IMG/VR virus record: IMGVR_UViG_3300005096_000422
Location: 1 to 37,984 of that record
Source: a virus
Strand: one strand, 5' to 3'
DNA length: 37,984 nucleotides
Shown here: positions 5,041 through 37,102 of the stretch, piece after piece
Position numbering within the stretch: the first letter of the stretch is position 1
Layout of the letters: each line of letters opens with the position of its first letter
The notes under the pieces: generated by a model
Databases searched by the model: none
Told to the model about the DNA's origin: nothing
The model's input: the letters and a program-made list of their open reading frames with translations, nothing else
Translations under genes and position numbers: made by a program

Positions 5041-7217
5041 GCGGAAACCTTCACTGTTACGCCGTCGCCAATGGCTTCGTTGATTTCAGGGATAATCTGA
5101 TCGCGCACCATATTGGTCGTGATCAGGCGGTCTGAGTCAAGAACAATGAATACGGTACGCTCTGGGGCCTGCTGTCTTTGATCCGGACCAGCTATAGCGT
5201 CATTTGTTACCGGGTTGTTGGTGCCCGGATCCGCCTGAAAAACGGGTGAGGCCTCTGGGCCACCACCACCGGCAATACCTGATGCTTGCACCAGTCCAGT
5301 GGCTGCGATCAGTGCGATACTGGCGGCACCCCATGCACCAATAGCTGCAGCCATTGGTGGTCCGGCTATAGGGCCAAGCTCAGCCATGGCGCGTATCTGC
5401 GCAACTTTTGTGTTCACAATCGTTTGCGCGATCGCAAGCCCTTTCTGTACAACCAGCGCCAGCAACGCAGCTGTCTTTGACTTTGTCGCCAATACGTTCA
5501 GTAGCGCCACGGTATTAGTGAATGTGGCTTGCCGCATTGACCGCACGCTGGCCTCAACGCCTCTTTGGCGCTTCAGATCTTTAGTATCGAGCTTCGCCTT
5601 TTGATTGGTGTACCAGGTGTCCAGTGCCGCACGCCGTTCGTTATACGCCTGGTAGGACTGCGCGTTTGTATCCAATGCTTCCTCGAGCAAAAACTGCTTT
5701 TCGAGGAAGTCATTTTGTAACAGTTCCCGCTCGCTGAGCATCGAATCATCAAGGGCGATCAGTTTTTCACTGAGCGCCTCGCGCAGTTTGCGTAGATCCT
5801 CTTCAGCATTGCCCAGGATGAAACTGCCGCCTTCGGAACCCGGTGCATTGGCTGCCGCAGCTGCAAGCTCTGCGCGCGATGCCTCCATTTCCTCACGGAT
5901 ACGGGTGAAGAAGTTGCGGATACGTGATTCAGCACTCTCACCGCCTCCAGCATCATCACCCAGCAGGATATCAGCCAATGGCTTCACATCGCGTTGAATG
6001 GTGCCAGACATCAACTCGGTACGTTTCTGGAGTGCATCAAGTTTTTCACGCGCCGCTTCGTTGCCTGATGTAAGCCACTCGAAAAATCCAACCTGGTCTT
6101 GTGAGTAGGCTTTCCACCATTCTGCTGTGGTGCGCATCTCATCACCAGCAGCTGTCAGGCCTGCAACAACAATCAGGCCTTTTCTACCGCCAAGTAGCGC
6201 ACCGACGATGCCGATTTCCTGTGCCCATTGCGGCAGGCGCTGATATTCAGCCCACAAATCCGAGCCTATGCGTGAGATATTGTCAATGGGTCCATCGACA
6301 ACATCCACAAATTTTGCTGTGCCAATAGCCATTGTCTCAATGGCATTGATAATCGTGTCAGACCAGCGTTTTGCGGCGGCTTCGTTGTTCTTCAGCGCGT
6401 TGCCCAGGTCATCATCGATAACGTTGGCAGCGGCCTTGAAGAAATCAAACAGCCCGGCGTCCATGATCTGATTGCGTACCAGAAACCACTTGTCCGACAG
6501 CATGGACATGGTGCCGCCCCAAGTACGCGCAAGCTTATCTGTCGCACCTCGGAACTTACTATCGGTATCAGTCCAGGCGGCAACCAGCTGGGCCTTGGTT
6601 TCCTCAGCAGAGATCGTCACGCCTGCCTGAAAGCCAAGCATCGCCAAAATGCCACGCTCCCGGAACAGGTCGGCTGAATTCGCACCGGCAGAGAGCATGC
6701 GTGAGATCTGTTCCGTGGTTAACTGAATGCTAAATCCAGATGTAGCAGCCAGGTCAGCAATCAACGGCATCCACTGTACGATTTCGTCAACACCGCCACG
6801 CAGTATGCCGGACAGCTGCGTGGCAGATGCCATAATCTCTTCATACTCAAACGGCACGCGACTAGCGAACTGCGCCATCTCGGCAAACAGGCGGTTGCCT
6901 TCGTTCACATCGCCGAGCAATACACTAAGCCGTGTTCGGAACTGTTCTGATGTCGACGCCGCATCGATAAACTGGCGCGATACCGCCCCAATTCCAACGC
7001 CTACCAGCGCCGTTTTGAGCGAAAAGATATTGCGGGTCAATTTGGACAGATTACCGTTCACACCAACATAGGCGGCGCTCATGGCCCTGGCTGCTCGCGC
7101 GCCTTTCTTCATGCTCTTCTCAGCGGTGCGGCCGAATTTCTCGACCGTCACAGAGCCATCGTCCTTCACGCGCAGGACAACTGACAGCTCACCACCTTTA
7201 CCGATCCCGATTGCCAT
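5037..7217 (-). CDS. tape measure protein
   Basis: 726 residues, the longest tail gene. It begins with a typical tape-measure N-terminus (LSVVLRVKDDGSVTVEKFGR, then an alanine-rich helix), has helical segments to about residue 300 (ISRMLSAGANSADLFRERG), a coiled-coil stretch about 450 to 590, and a hydrophobic segment about 610 to 665 (ALLALVVQKGLAIAQTIVN and following). In tailed phages this protein sets tail length and passes into the host membrane at DNA entry. At roughly 1.5 angstrom per residue it predicts a tail near 110 nm. The gene follows the frameshifted chaperone pair and overlaps its second frame by 20 bp. Confidence 0.9.
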   Translation of the reverse strand: MAIGIGKGGELSVVLRVKDDGSVTVEKFGRTAEKSMKKGARAARAMSAAYVGVNGNLSKLTRNIFSLKTALVGVGIGAVSRQFIDAASTSEQFRTRLSVLLGDVNEGNRLFAEMAQFASRVPFEYEEIMASATQLSGILRGGVDEIVQWMPLIADLAATSGFSIQLTTEQISRMLSAGANSADLFRERGILAMLGFQAGVTISAEETKAQLVAAWTDTDSKFRGATDKLARTWGGTMSMLSDKWFLVRNQIMDAGLFDFFKAAANVIDDDLGNALKNNEAAAKRWSDTIINAIETMAIGTAKFVDVVDGPIDNISRIGSDLWAEYQRLPQWAQEIGIVGALLGGRKGLIVVAGLTAAGDEMRTTAEWWKAYSQDQVGFFEWLTSGNEAAREKLDALQKRTELMSGTIQRDVKPLADILLGDDAGGGESAESRIRNFFTRIREEMEASRAELAAAAANAPGSEGGSFILGNAEEDLRKLREALSEKLIALDDSMLSERELLQNDFLEKQFLLEEALDTNAQSYQAYNERRAALDTWYTNQKAKLDTKDLKRQRGVEASVRSMRQATFTNTVALLNVLATKSKTAALLALVVQKGLAIAQTIVNTKVAQIRAMAELGPIAGPPMAAAIGAWGAASIALIAATGLVQASGIAGGGGPEASPVFQADPGTNNPVTNDAIAGPDQRQQAPERTVFIVLDSDRLITTNMVRDQIIPEINEAIGDGVTVKVSA

Positions 7218-14960: not shown

Positions 14961-17432
14961 CTACGCCACCACACTCTTGTAGAAGGGGCGGAAATCAACC
15001 AGGTCGCCGCCGTAGACGTGGCGGATCTTGTAGGTGATCTGATCGTTGCTGAACAGAGAACCCTGAGTCGGGTTGTCCTGCACGAACAGCTCGGGCTCTT
15101 CCTGGCCGTCCATGAAACCGATCTCGATGCCCGGTATTTCCATCGGGTCAGCGGACAGCACCCAGTCATTGGGGTCAGTCCAATACCACACAGGAATCAC
15201 ATCGAGAGACAAGGTCTGGGTAAAGGTCTTGTCGTTTTCTGTGTTGCGGCGGAACAGGTTGACACCCGCCTCTTCCAGATCGCCCGGAACCAGTAGCGAC
15301 TTCGGCCCGATGCCGATGCGATCGCCACTGCCCAGCTCGGTCTGCTGCAACATCGCCAGGCGGCCGGCGGCCAGTGAAGTAGCGCTCAGCGCTGCAGTGC
15401 CCAGGTTATTATGGCCGGCGGCAAACAGCGCGACGGTGTCGTAGATAATCGGATTGGTGCGTAATAAGTCCAGCACAAACTTGGCTAGTGTGCGTTTGGC
15501 GGCGCGGCTGAGGCTGATCGGGATACGGCGTATGAAACCGACGTCATCGTTTTTGATCGCCTCGATCGACAGCGTCTCCTTACCACCACGTTTGGATGGC
15601 TTATAGGTAGCTTCCTCATCAGTTGGCGACGTCAACGCCGTGTATGGACCGTTCTCCGCCACGGCCGGCAAATCACCGTAACCGCCCCAACGCGGACGAT
15701 GCTGGGTACGGAAATCGCTCAGCGGCACTACGTTGGAGACAGGGCGCCACACATCGTACTGACCGGTTTCAGCATAGTCGGCCAGCATTACACGGTGGAT
15801 GGTGTCACCCAGGATCTGGTCAAGACCGGTGGTGCCGAGCGCTTCGCGGAATCCGGTTGCCTCACGCAATCGCGCCTGGTTACAGTCACGGAGATGACCG
15901 GTAACACGGGTGTCGCCCGTGATCTCGACGTAGCATTCCTTGAATGAGATCACATCGCGGTTGCCGGGATCGAAGAACGCCTCCAGCATTTTTGAGACCT
16001 GCTCACTGCGATCTTCGCCCATGCTGATATGGACCTGCCCACCCAGGCCGCTGACACTACCCGACTCGGTGAATGTGGCCAGGTAATCACGCTCATCCTT
16101 GATGGCAGTGGTGACCTGCGCTTCAGTGAACCGATCTATACCATCGAACTGCTTGCGCAGTTTGGTGCACGCCGCTTCCGGAAGACCACATTCCGCGATG
16201 CTGACACGCATGTTGGCGCGCGCTTCGACCATGCGCAGGGATTCGTCCAGTTGTTCCCGGCTCACGCCCTGGGCAGCAGCACCGGATTGTGCCGCCGCCG
16301 CTTCGGTGGCTTTTGGCTCAGGGAGGGTTATAGGTTTCAGCGCCTCACGGTAGGCCGTCTCCAGCGCTTCGTCATTGTCGACATCGAGCCCGTCGGGCAG
16401 GGTGCCTTTATTGGCGGCCTTGACGGCCTCGATCATACGGTCACGGAGTTTCATGTCTGCAAGTTCCTCGTGGTTCAGCGCTTCGATAAGATTGATGATT
16501 TGCCCGCCGGCGCCAGGCTCAATGATGAGATCAACAGAATTGACCTTGGTGATTTTGCGGGCCGTTCGCCGACCCTTCGCGACTTTCGCCGTGCCATTGG
16601 CGTCTATCGAGAATCCAAACAGATCCTGTGCCATGTTGCGTTGCCAGGCTTCCAACAGTTTGGCTGGTACATCATCGGCAGTTGACAGCAGCTCCAGCAC
16701 GCCTTCCAGCCTGCCCTGGTCAGTGCCACGGCCCTCGATAAACTCTGGCTTGGTAATGCGGCCGATCAGATTGCGGAAACTTTTACCCTTACCGGCCAGG
16801 TGTTCGTCATCGGACTTGACGAATACACGGGCGCCATTGAACAACGGCACGGCTTCGCGCAGGACCGCATCGGGGTAATAGTTCTTGTTGCCCGACAGAC
16901 CGGCATTGATGATCAGCACCCGCCATGTCAGGCCCTGGTCATCCTGCGACTCGATGAACACCTGCTGCGCCTCACGCATGACCACGTCGGTGTGATCGAG
17001 CACAACCTCTTTCGGCGTGCCCAGCTGCACCTGGTTGTTGTCATCGATGGTGTAGGGGTAGGCATAGCTGCGGCCGTCACGGCCGATAACGATGCGGTCC
17101 GGGTAAATCGCCTGGACATCGATGTAGACGCGATCCGGGCCACCGCCACCGATGCTTTCGCGTACCGCACGGACAACCAGCGCGGATCTGGCGCTCAGAT
17201 CACTGGCTGCCGCTTCGCGCAGTTTGGCGGGGATAAGTGACAGCAGGCTGTCGAACGAGACATCCAGCGCCTTGGCAAAGCCGCGCAACCGTTCATCCGG
17301 TGGGCGCATAATGTCACCAGCGAGGATACCCTGCAGGGTGCTCTCGGAAATGCCGCCGGCTTTCGCCAGGGCGGCCACGTTGAGCTTCTTGTCGCGCATC
17401 AGGCTGCGCAGGCGATCACCAAGTTTCGACAT
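14961..17432 (-). CDS. fusion of XRE-type HTH, prohead protease and major capsid protein
   Basis: 823 residues in one open frame. Residues 1 to about 70 are an XRE/Cro-like helix-turn-helix (LNVAALAKAGGISESTLQGI, then DERLRGFAKALDVSFDSLLS). About 150 to 310 resembles a phage prohead protease (NKNYYPDAVLREAVPLFNG, with His in DEHLAG and Ser in KSFRNLIGRI as the likely catalytic pair). A helical, charged linker follows (about 330 to 420), perhaps scaffold-like. From about 490 to the end is a major capsid protein (QARLREATGFREALGTTGLD, YKPSKRGGKETLSIEAIKND, ending YKSVVA) like Mu gpT-type head proteins. Protease-capsid fusions are known; the HTH domain at the front is unusual. Only CCC separates its ATG from the previous stop, so translation is probably coupled. 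Confidence 0.8.
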   Translation of the reverse strand: MSKLGDRLRSLMRDKKLNVAALAKAGGISESTLQGILAGDIMRPPDERLRGFAKALDVSFDSLLSLIPAKLREAAASDLSARSALVVRAVRESIGGGGPDRVYIDVQAIYPDRIVIGRDGRSYAYPYTIDDNNQVQLGTPKEVVLDHTDVVMREAQQVFIESQDDQGLTWRVLIINAGLSGNKNYYPDAVLREAVPLFNGARVFVKSDDEHLAGKGKSFRNLIGRITKPEFIEGRGTDQGRLEGVLELLSTADDVPAKLLEAWQRNMAQDLFGFSIDANGTAKVAKGRRTARKITKVNSVDLIIEPGAGGQIINLIEALNHEELADMKLRDRMIEAVKAANKGTLPDGLDVDNDEALETAYREALKPITLPEPKATEAAAAQSGAAAQGVSREQLDESLRMVEARANMRVSIAECGLPEAACTKLRKQFDGIDRFTEAQVTTAIKDERDYLATFTESGSVSGLGGQVHISMGEDRSEQVSKMLEAFFDPGNRDVISFKECYVEITGDTRVTGHLRDCNQARLREATGFREALGTTGLDQILGDTIHRVMLADYAETGQYDVWRPVSNVVPLSDFRTQHRPRWGGYGDLPAVAENGPYTALTSPTDEEATYKPSKRGGKETLSIEAIKNDDVGFIRRIPISLSRAAKRTLAKFVLDLLRTNPIIYDTVALFAAGHNNLGTAALSATSLAAGRLAMLQQTELGSGDRIGIGPKSLLVPGDLEEAGVNLFRRNTENDKTFTQTLSLDVIPVWYWTDPNDWVLSADPMEIPGIEIGFMDGQEEPELFVQDNPTQGSLFSNDQITYKIRHVYGGDLVDFRPFYKSVVA

Positions 17433-17435
17433 GGG

Positions 17436-17657
17436 CTATTCGCTGGACAGCTTTTCGCCGGCGGTGGTAACCACAACAACGTGGGTGCCGTAGTCTTTGA
17501 ATGACATAATGTCTTTGACCGGTACTGCCTTTTTGATCAGCACAGGCACACCTTTTTCGTCTGTAACGGGTTTACCGTTTTTCATCTCCGGGACCATCCG
17601 ATACACGGCCTTGGCGGCCTGTGCGGTAGTCATGGCTTTGGCAGTTTCGTCGGGCAT
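17436..17657 (-). CDS. small protein before the capsid gene, unknown
   Basis: 73 residues with a good RBS (GGAGAG, about 8 bases upstream). It is charged, with a central KNGKPVTDEKGVPVLIKKAV stretch and the end HVVVVTTAGEKL. It is the first gene after the candidate late promoter at 17739..17757 and is probably co-transcribed and translationally coupled with the protease-capsid gene. No family recognised. Confidence 0.55.
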   Translation of the reverse strand: MPDETAKAMTTAQAAKAVYRMVPEMKNGKPVTDEKGVPVLIKKAVPVKDIMSFKDYGTHVVVVTTAGEKLSSE

Positions 17658-17738
17658 TTGACTCTCCGTTTTCGATTAAACATTTCGCGCTCTACTCAGC
17701 AACAGGTGTGACCATAAAGGGACGCACTTCATTGGGCT

Positions 17739-17757
17739 ATTAAAGGGCTTTAGTATT
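17739..17757. promoter_or_regulatory. conserved dyad motif, copy A (candidate late activator site)
   Basis: ATTAAAGGGCTTTAGTATT lies in the 114-bp gap between the head morphogenesis gene and the 73-aa/capsid genes. It differs from the copy at 25005..25023 at a single base, the dyad centre. Read leftward, CTTTAT follows the dyad after 20 bases, where a -10 box would stand if an activator bound near -40. Position matches the PI late promoter of Mu. Confidence 0.6.
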
Positions 17758-24970: not shown

Positions 24971-25004
24971 GGAGACAGGATGTGGGAGTGGGTCGGTGGG
25001 GGAT

Positions 25005-25023
25005 ATTAAAGTGCTTTAGTATT
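25005..25023. promoter_or_regulatory. conserved dyad motif, copy B (candidate late activator site)
   Basis: ATTAAAGTGCTTTAGTATT lies 35 bp upstream of the endolysin ATG, the head of the leftward late operon. It differs from copy A at one base. No good -35 box is near, and the -10 region is poor, as expected for an activator-dependent promoter. The position corresponds to the Plys late promoter of Mu. The rest of 24971..25160 shows nothing recognisable. Confidence 0.6.
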
Positions 25024-25434: not shown

Positions 25435-25625
25435 GTCACGGTGGCAAAAGAAAGGGGGCTGGAAGGCCCCCGATTGACCCACGGATGGTTAAGGTTCCGG
25501 TAGGGTGGAAGTTACCCCAATGGCTGGTTGAGTGGATCAGAGAGCAAGACAAACCGGCCTCGCATTTGGTGGAAGAAGCACTGTGTAAATGTCACAAGTT
25601 AAAACCACCGAGAAATCGGCATTAA
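25431..25625 (+). CDS. small DNA-binding-like protein (AT-hook-like N-terminus)
   Basis: 64 residues. The start has an AT-hook-like GGKRKGAGRPP, followed by KVPVGWKLPQWLVEWIREQ and SHLVEEALCK, which resembles short ribbon-helix-helix proteins of phages and plasmids. It ends with a basic tail. Its stop overlaps the convergent lipoprotein stop, and the dyad motif copy C lies on that junction. A transcriptional regulator is the best guess. Confidence 0.6.
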   Translation: MSHGGKRKGAGRPPIDPRMVKVPVGWKLPQWLVEWIREQDKPASHLVEEALCKCHKLKPPRNRH

Positions 25626-25639
25626 AGAGCTTTAGTCTT
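25621..25639. promoter_or_regulatory. conserved dyad motif, copy C
   Basis: ATTAAAGAGCTTTAGTCTT sits exactly where two convergent genes end; it contains both stop codons and encodes the last residues (TKAL) of the lipoprotein. It differs from copies A and B only at the dyad centre and near the 3' end. No gene start lies directly beyond it on either strand, so a pure promoter role is not obvious here. Confidence 0.5.
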
Positions 25640-26573: not shown

Positions 26574-27080
26574 CTACTTTCGATTGTTATCTTTCTTAGT
26601 GCTGTCTAGCCAAAAATCCGGGTGACGAGCACTTTCCAGTATGTTGAGTAGAAGATTAATTTCATCGTCTGACATTGCTGTTTTAACCACAAGATCCCTG
26701 ACAGGACCAAATTGAACAGGATCTGGCTGTGGTGACCTGCGCTCAGCAAGTCGCATCACACGATCTGTAAACTCACTGATTATTGCCACGCGATCATGGA
26801 ACTTTTCGGGGTGCCGGCGACTCACGCGGTAGCCAGACAGCTCTTCTTCAATACCATCAGATTCTGCCTCAGAACCCAACAGCACATAATCCAGCGAAGT
26901 ATCGTTGCGTAATGCGACGTCTACGCATTCCGCGTATGGAATTGAGTCTCGCGCACGCCACGAACTGAGTGTAGTGCGTGCCACTGAAAGCGCTTCCGCC
27001 AATTCAGTATCGTTTTTCACTTCAAGTATTTGCGCGAGGCGCCCCAAGACCTCATCCACCTTCGGCGGTGTTTTTCTCAT
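26574..27080 (-). CDS. CI-like prophage repressor
   Basis: 168 residues. Residues 10 to 70 form a helix-turn-helix of the phage CI repressor type (VLGRLAQILEVKNDTELAEA, SVARTTLSSWRARDSIPYAE, then SLDYVLLG). There is no LexA-like peptidase domain with Ser-Lys pair, so induction by RecA cleavage is unlikely, as for Mu c. The C-terminal part is helical and charged. The gene diverges from the early operon over a region with two identical operator-like sites, and it heads the leftward operon with two envelope proteins. Confidence 0.8.
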   Translation of the reverse strand: MRKTPPKVDEVLGRLAQILEVKNDTELAEALSVARTTLSSWRARDSIPYAECVDVALRNDTSLDYVLLGSEAESDGIEEELSGYRVSRRHPEKFHDRVAIISEFTDRVMRLAERRSPQPDPVQFGPVRDLVVKTAMSDDEINLLLNILESARHPDFWLDSTKKDNNRK

Positions 27081-36285: not shown

Positions 36286-36752
36286 GAAACATGAGCGATC
36301 CCAGAAAAACCGACCTGGCCAAAATCCATATCGCCCGCAAGGATCTCCACCTGGATGAGGAGACCTACCGCTGTGTCATTCGAGAGATCGGCAAGGTGGC
36401 TTCCGGCAGTTCGAAAGACCTTACACCAACCGGCAGAGCACGTGTGCTGGCCCATTTCCGGTCGAAAGGGTGGAAGCCGAGGCGCGCAAAAAGAACGCCT
36501 CGGAAATCGCAGGGTATGGCGTCTGCCGGCCAGATCAAAAAAATAAAGGATCTCTGGATATCTCTTGCTGATGCGGGCGTAGTGAGAGCACCAGGTGAGG
36601 ATGGGCTGCGCGCTTGGCTGACGTCAGCAACTCGCAAGATGCATCCCGCGCATACCGGCTATCACGCAGTTGAATTTCTACCTGACGGAGTCGCAATAAA
36701 TGTTATCGAGCAACTCAAGAAATGGGCATCGCGTTGTAAGGTTCGGCTATGA
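36282..36752 (+). CDS. gemA: GemA (Mu gp16-like, DUF1018)
   Basis: 156 residues from ATG at 36282 (or 153 from 36291). KIHIARKDLHLDEETYRCVI, REIGKVASGSSKDLTPTGRA and VLAHFRSKGWKP are the DUF1018 signature; QGMASAGQIKKIKDLWISLA and HAVEFLPDGVAINVIEQLKK close the domain. In Mu gemA lies just upstream of mor and affects host DNA supercoiling and gene expression; the order is the same here. Overlaps mor by 4 bp. Confidence 0.85.
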   Translation: MRNMSDPRKTDLAKIHIARKDLHLDEETYRCVIREIGKVASGSSKDLTPTGRARVLAHFRSKGWKPRRAKRTPRKSQGMASAGQIKKIKDLWISLADAGVVRAPGEDGLRAWLTSATRKMHPAHTGYHAVEFLPDGVAINVIEQLKKWASRCKVRL

Positions 36753-37102
36753 ATGACCAATACCGCAGTCGAGGGCCTGAGCTGCTGATAGACCTGGTGG
36801 ACAAGACAGCCAAGGTCTTGGAACAGGAAGCCGGGTTATCGCCTGAGACGGCCCGTATGTGCGCCGAGGCTGTCGGCCACCAGATGCGGCAGGAATGGGG
36901 TGGTCAACAGGTCTACTTCCCAAAAGGGGCTGCCGTCGATATCTCTGCTCGGGACCGTCAGTTATATGACGAGTTCGATGGCCAAAATCACGTTGCCCTC
37001 GCCCGGAAATACAACCTGTCCGTCCAGTGGGTTTACCAGCGTGTCAAAGCTGTTCAGGCTGCTGAGGCGTCCCGCCGCCAGGTCGATTTGTTCACCGACT
37101 GA
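36749..37102 (+). CDS. mor: Mor-family transcription activator
   Basis: 117 residues, last early gene. The N-terminal dimerisation part (LLIDLVDKTAKVLEQEAGLS) leads to GGQQVYFPKGAAVDISARDR and a C-terminal helix-turn-helix (DEFDGQNHVALARKYNLSVQ, then WVYQRVKAVQ), all typical of Mor/C proteins. Mu Mor activates the middle promoter and C the late ones by binding a dyad near -43 and contacting RNA polymerase. Only one such gene is present, so it may drive the late genes directly. Confidence 0.9.
   Translation: MNDQYRSRGPELLIDLVDKTAKVLEQEAGLSPETARMCAEAVGHQMRQEWGGQQVYFPKGAAVDISARDRQLYDEFDGQNHVALARKYNLSVQWVYQRVKAVQAAEASRRQVDLFTD

Follow-up and report, generated by a model that had tools for sequence, protein, structure and literature searches.

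Why would a phage place a repressor-type domain at the front of its capsid protein? The question is raised by one open reading frame of 823 residues in the window (here, the whole analysed stretch of 37,984 nucleotides of viral DNA). The window represents a Mu-like transposable phage, with a terminase, portal, tape measure, endolysin, CI-type repressor, transposase, transposition protein B and a Mor/C-type late activator. The initial annotation had described the frame as an XRE-type helix-turn-helix (HTH) in residues 1-70 followed by a protease and a capsid domain; the frame exists with exactly these parts and limits, and is read from the minus strand. Its features, and the gene that precedes it, are:

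14961..17432, minus strand: ORF of the 823-residue polyprotein, in the order HTH, small beta domain, protease, scaffold helices and HK97-fold major capsid domain (ORF, Pfam, PHROG, model and fold matches)
17223..17432, minus strand: XRE/Cro-C1-type HTH domain, residues 1-70 (HTH_26, predicted structure, fold match and dN/dS)
17211..17222, minus strand: LREA, residues 71-74, predicted self-cleavage site LRE73/A74 that would free the HTH (motif enrichment and conservation)
16983..17201, minus strand: helix plus small beta domain, residues 78-150, segment 79-143 in the model (alignment, the L018 sequence and model)
16482..16964, minus strand: assemblin/prohead-type serine protease domain, residues 157-317, segment 169-315 in the model (conservation and viral-model matches)
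16800-16802, minus strand: likely catalytic His211 (conserved)
16608-16610, minus strand: likely catalytic Ser275 (conserved)
15843..16481, minus strand: helical scaffold/delta-like region with many xEA motifs, residues 318-530, helices at 321-526 in the model (motif counts, model and NCBIfam scaffold-protease-MCP fusion models)
15840..15869, minus strand: LREATGFREA, residues 522-531, predicted final cuts, after which the mature capsid protein would start at about A531 (motifs at E524 and E530; encapsulin matches)
14964..15842, minus strand: HK97-fold major capsid domain, residues 531-823 (Phage_capsid_4; encapsulin and phage capsid matches)
17436..17657, minus strand: 73-residue gene just upstream of the polyprotein and in the same frame, with TAG CCC (17433-17438) between it and the HTH ATG

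Phage_capsid_4 matches residues 529-820 (Pfam, E 1.2e-44, 154 bits against a cut-off of 27), and PHROG 29592 spans residues 86-823 (E 2e-218), with the HTH outside the match. The NCBIfam models for prohead protease/major capsid protein fusions match residues 329-820 and 400-820 below their curated cut-offs (NF045540, 182 bits against 525; NF045541, 136 against 475); the polyprotein appears related to these families, yet falls outside them by NCBI's rule. A full-chain AlphaFold model built with 103 relatives (pLDDT 85.9) gives the order HTH, helix and beta domain, protease, scaffold-like helices and capsid. Its capsid part matches encapsulins and phage capsids with Z 12-15 in fold comparison, and among viral structure models the chain matches capsid maturation proteases. 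H211 and S275 are invariant in 13 relatives and nearly so in 104, and are likely to form the catalytic pair of the head protease. One-chain fusions of protease, scaffold and HK97-fold capsid are known (NF045540, NF045541; the Rhodobacter RcOceanus type; PHROG 29592, 4523 and 133), and the capsid part is clearly homologous to theirs. Unlike the window polyprotein, however, these fusions have no HTH described in them, and that of the Microcystis phage Mae-JY22, which is 47.6% identical to it, carries a short leader in place of the HTH.

Is the HTH really part of the protein? Pfam finds HTH_26 at residues 7-68 (E 4.7e-10, 40 bits against a cut-off of 22), with HTH_31 (32 bits against 27) and HTH_3 (30.4 against 23) matching as well. 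AlphaFold folds the region as an ordinary five-helix XRE bundle with helices within residues 2-64 (pLDDT 87.7), not as the non-DNA-binding helical bundle that had been raised as an alternative. In fold comparison the model superimposes on CapH (7t5u) with Z 11.1 and an rmsd of 1.4 over 66 residues, other close folds being 434 Cro (Z 10.2) and the 434 repressor-DNA complex (Z 9.7). The XRE fold does not always bind DNA, though. It also occurs in non-regulatory enzymes that are not head proteins, namely cyanase and HppE/HEPD (6xgt, Z 10.5; 6b9r; 1zz7), and therefore the fold alone is no proof of DNA binding.

Within the HTH stretch start codons occur only at residues 1, 12, 19, 42 and 49, and none follows until about residue 110. 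Because of this gap, the conserved region 86-150 can be reached only by ribosomes that begin within or ahead of the HTH, and among these starts ATG1 alone yields the complete domain. Against contig L016, whose polyprotein is 90% identical and carries the same HTH fusion, dN/dS is 0.13 for the HTH frame, about 2 for the other two frames and 0.10 for the small beta domain. These values support translation of the HTH from ATG1 under purifying selection. Translation beginning downstream of the HTH, which had been named as one result that would refute the fusion, is ruled out by the start-codon gap together with the in-frame selection, and an assembly artefact by the fusions in L016, L006 and L018. 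The HTH ATG has no Shine-Dalgarno sequence before it, which makes translational coupling to the 73-residue gene likely. The TAG CCC ATG junction, identical in L016, would be passed either by reinitiation or by amber read-through.

How would such a domain be separated from the capsid protein? In T4, phiKZ and SPN3US the prohead proteases recognise x-x-E motifs and cleave behind the Glu (PMC5694885). A hydrophobic-x-E-A motif was first spotted by eye in the polyprotein and then tested against shuffles. In 103 relatives it is found 6.7 times as often as expected in the N-terminal part, 10.1 times in the protease, 7.3 times in the scaffold and 0.98 times in the capsid domain, these being non-independent counts since homologous positions repeat across relatives. 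Ten distant relatives alone have 65 motifs before the capsid domain (10.9 expected) and 4 inside it (3.8 expected). Ahead of the capsid domain, EA exceeds expectation more than any other dipeptide, and within that domain it is not enriched; Met, Phe and Leu are preferred at P3 and Arg at P2. The window polyprotein has 12 sites before residue 545, where 1.2 are expected and none of 5000 shuffles reaches this number, and one after it; residues 1-70 have none, and the portal, terminase and tape measure of the same phage have 2-3.

This is the distribution of a T4-type substrate, with hydrophobic-x-E motifs in the scaffold and propeptides and chance frequency in the capsid core. As in gp21-type head maturation of T4, the predicted cuts follow Glu, and sites are many in scaffold and protease and not above chance in the capsid domain; differently from it, all parts belong to one chain and Ala is preferred after the predicted cut. 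R72 and A74 are nearly invariant in 13 relatives, and a cut at LRE73/A74 is predicted to free an intact 73-residue HTH, so that the release by self-cleavage proposed in the initial annotation gains a candidate site. At the other end, the encapsulin alignments begin near residue 533, and a cut at FRE530/A531 would yield the mature capsid protein.

A search for other capsid polyproteins with an N-terminal HTH, advised with the annotation, found them in L016, L006 and L018. In the last two the HTH (60% and 58% identical to that of the window) is joined straight to the protease, without the beta domain. The HTH thus recurs in two further capsid-polyprotein lineages, while the majority of about 180 relatives lack it, most having only a leader of about 15-25 residues with the same LREA at its end. 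A widespread capsid-HTH fusion is ruled out by these few lineages, and the HTH-bearing form is a genuine variant, though not a common one. A further module of this polyprotein is the small beta domain ahead of the protease, which is doubled in L011 (5986-8577) and missing in L006, L012 and L018. In L006 a long hairpin also lies upstream of the capsid cassette (5600-5635, GCGAGAT..CCGATCC/GGATCGG..ATCTCGC).

The domain extends beyond capsid polyproteins, which the window taken alone could not reveal. Profile scans of IMG/VR yielded 19 contigs with the HTH, the profile being seeded from that of the window, so that other XRE domains, if present on head proteins, may have escaped it. In 18 of the 19 it shares one reading frame with a head protease or scaffold. 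The partners are Phage_capsid_4 polyproteins (L006, L016, L018), Mu-like_Pro of the Mu gpI type (PF10123; L021, L022, L188, L244, L250), the HK97-type Peptidase_S78 (PF04586; L192, L194, L196), XkdF (PF14550, S78_2; L193), a PHROG 976 protease (L189) and less classified head proteins (L186, L190, L248), and the neighbouring genes encode portal, head-morphogenesis and major head proteins. In the remaining contig (L195, 2101-2376) a stand-alone small HTH gene lies directly 5' of a coiled-coil scaffold gene and a capsid gene, possibly the ancestral unfused form of the module.

The placement of the HTH varies, either ahead of the protease or between protease and scaffold. Mu gpZ and lambda Nu3 are scaffolds translated from internal starts. 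In L187/L188, L189, L194 and L186 an internal Shine-Dalgarno sequence and ATG stand right before the HTH, which therefore would begin a gpZ/Nu3-like scaffold there. The likeness to the Mu gpI protease/gpZ scaffold pair, read from gpI-like homologues, lies in these HTHs on gpI-like proteins, some of them at the internal scaffold start; the window protease belongs to a different type and shares its chain with the capsid protein. Identity between HTHs is as high across architectures (window and L244, 63%; L189 and L244, 63%) as within one (window and L006, 60%), which favours exchange of the module. Among phage scaffold and protease genes, the HTH is a recurring element.

Where did the module come from? 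With the same profile, a control scan of 754 bacterial genomes returned nothing but ordinary XRE regulators; these scored 36-46 bits, whereas L244 (itself outside the model) scored 104. This argues against a chromosomal origin. By tblastn, four HTH queries found generic or unannotated matches in phages, mostly repressors, and none in plasmids, ruling out that the HTH is common in isolated phages or plasmids. Nine of the 19 module contigs (L006, L192, L194, L195, L196, L244, L245, L248, L250; several with acidic proteins) come from metagenomes 3300023197, 3300023214 and 3300023283, whereas no more than 2 of 80 capsid relatives do (Fisher p 2e-6); the module may be spreading in, or be favoured by, one habitat or host group. 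A search of an open-access library turned up no account of head proteases, scaffolds or capsid proteins that carry an XRE-type HTH.

What does the domain do? The initial annotation had suggested that it binds phage DNA in the prohead or autoregulates late genes, and its putative DNA face speaks against both. The contacts of the 434 repressor, at the positions which we take to be those touching DNA, were mapped onto the HTHs by hand rather than computed on a complex. The mean charge of this face is -0.07 in 15 head HTHs and +2.68 in 41 chromosomal XRE regulators from the same search (p 2e-6, which overstates the case since the sequences are related). Some head HTHs look acidic overall, like the proteins of salt-loving hosts, and a salty habitat would also account for this, but the HTH of the window has a net charge of +3 and yet a DNA face of 0. 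At position 30, where the recognition helix begins, 10 of the 15 head HTHs, that of the window among them, have Glu, whereas the regulators mostly have Arg or Lys. CapH, 434 Cro and repressor and P22 c2 share the fold (Z 9.5-11), but they are regulators, whereas the window HTH has Glu at the position of 434 Gln28 and a DNA face with a charge of 0, without the basic surface of a DNA-binding XRE regulator. Phage CI/LexA-type repressors likewise join an XRE HTH to a self-cleaving serine protease; there the protease is S24, whereas the window has a capsid protease, a head cassette and a non-basic DNA face. Sequence-specific DNA binding by the HTH is, on these residues, less likely. Freed HTHs, hundreds per head, might still bind packaged DNA without sequence preference, or be ejected with it. 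The fold is closest to DNA-binding repressors, the lack of a cleavage motif in residues 1-70 means that the domain could survive intact in the head, and one copy per capsid subunit would be present if the fusion is its only source; the uncharged face and the Glu that opens the recognition helix nevertheless make this reading unlikely.

Autoregulation is known for the P22 scaffold, and its transcriptional version can be imagined here, with unassembled polyprotein repressing the late operon through the HTH until assembly and cleavage relieve it. A candidate site and two other regulators of the phage bear on this idea:

17738-17755, 25004-25021 and 25620-25637, minus orientation: 18-bp palindrome TACTAAAGNNCTTTAATA, repeated upstream of the capsid and lysis genes
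26574-27080: CI-type repressor
36749-37102: Mor/C-type late activator

The palindrome has 5 matches against 0.07 expected (both strands counted, 3 places), and one copy lies 323 bp upstream of the polyprotein gene; it is the only repeated palindrome near late genes and is conserved in L016. However, look-alikes occur upstream of the capsid gene in L024, L026, L027 and L142, all without HTH, so the element does not accompany the protein as an operator should and is more likely a family-wide late-promoter element, possibly where the Mor/C-type late activator binds, or a late promoter. This weakens its candidacy as an HTH operator; a sigma-70 promoter scan gave no match. Given also that the phage already has a CI-type repressor and a late activator, that the DNA face is uncharged and that the module sits on many different head genes, which is unexpected of an operator-specific regulator, assembly-sensing repression seems distinctly improbable. 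Could the HTH instead be a captured gene, fused in frame and tolerated because it is cut off? Its absence from most relatives and its variable position would fit such a neutral passenger, but a dN/dS of 0.13 across its 70 codons, in line with the remainder of the protein, its occurrence in at least five protease architectures at several positions and residues conserved specifically in the subfamily (G39, I41, R43, P44, P45) leave this account with little chance. Even less probable is that the HTH engages a factor of the host or of a competitor, be it as a decoy for CapH/ImmR-type HTH-protease regulators or by contact with a host chaperone or the portal; CapH (7t5u), which as a regulator acts together with a protease, is the best match among solved structures by sequence and nearly the best by fold, but 32% identity is ordinary for XRE domains.

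The reading that we prefer, with a probability close to even, is that the HTH is a portable XRE-fold module at the scaffold tip, which acts by protein contact and is cut off at maturation. From what was computed (the fold, the fusion, selection in the HTH frame, the recurrence among unrelated head proteins and the motif pattern) we infer the following course. The HTH would form the extreme N-terminal tip of the scaffold-protease-capsid polyprotein and, with no second capsid gene found, one copy per capsid subunit would enter the procapsid, pointing into the lumen alongside the scaffold region. There it would most likely work through protein-protein contact rather than operator binding, and probable self-association may help to nucleate or size the procapsid. 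Once activated, the protease would cut after Glu in hydrophobic-x-E-A motifs, shredding scaffold and protease and freeing the HTH whole as a 73-residue piece. Against protein contact, a portable DNA-binding domain could spread in the same manner; moreover, the window HTH has an overall net charge of +3 and retains R43-P44 of the loop that touches the DNA backbone in the 434 repressor, and most relatives assemble without an HTH.

A bolder proposal, to which only a slim chance can be given, is that tailed phages have in common a mobile repressor-fold domain which is incorporated stoichiometrically into procapsids through scaffold or capsid polyproteins, is cut off intact and may stay with the DNA and enter the next host. 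If a repressor-fold domain were indeed kept in the head with the DNA, the repressor-like molecules in a virion would number in the hundreds.

Of all the parts of phage heads, scaffolds are the least conserved and the least well understood. A repressor-fold domain that moves among unrelated scaffold and protease genes would give these genes a building block in common that can be recognised, which is rare, and would illustrate how a regulator fold was probably taken up for virus assembly. The motif map supplies candidate cleavage points for a system in which scaffold, protease and capsid are made as one chain.
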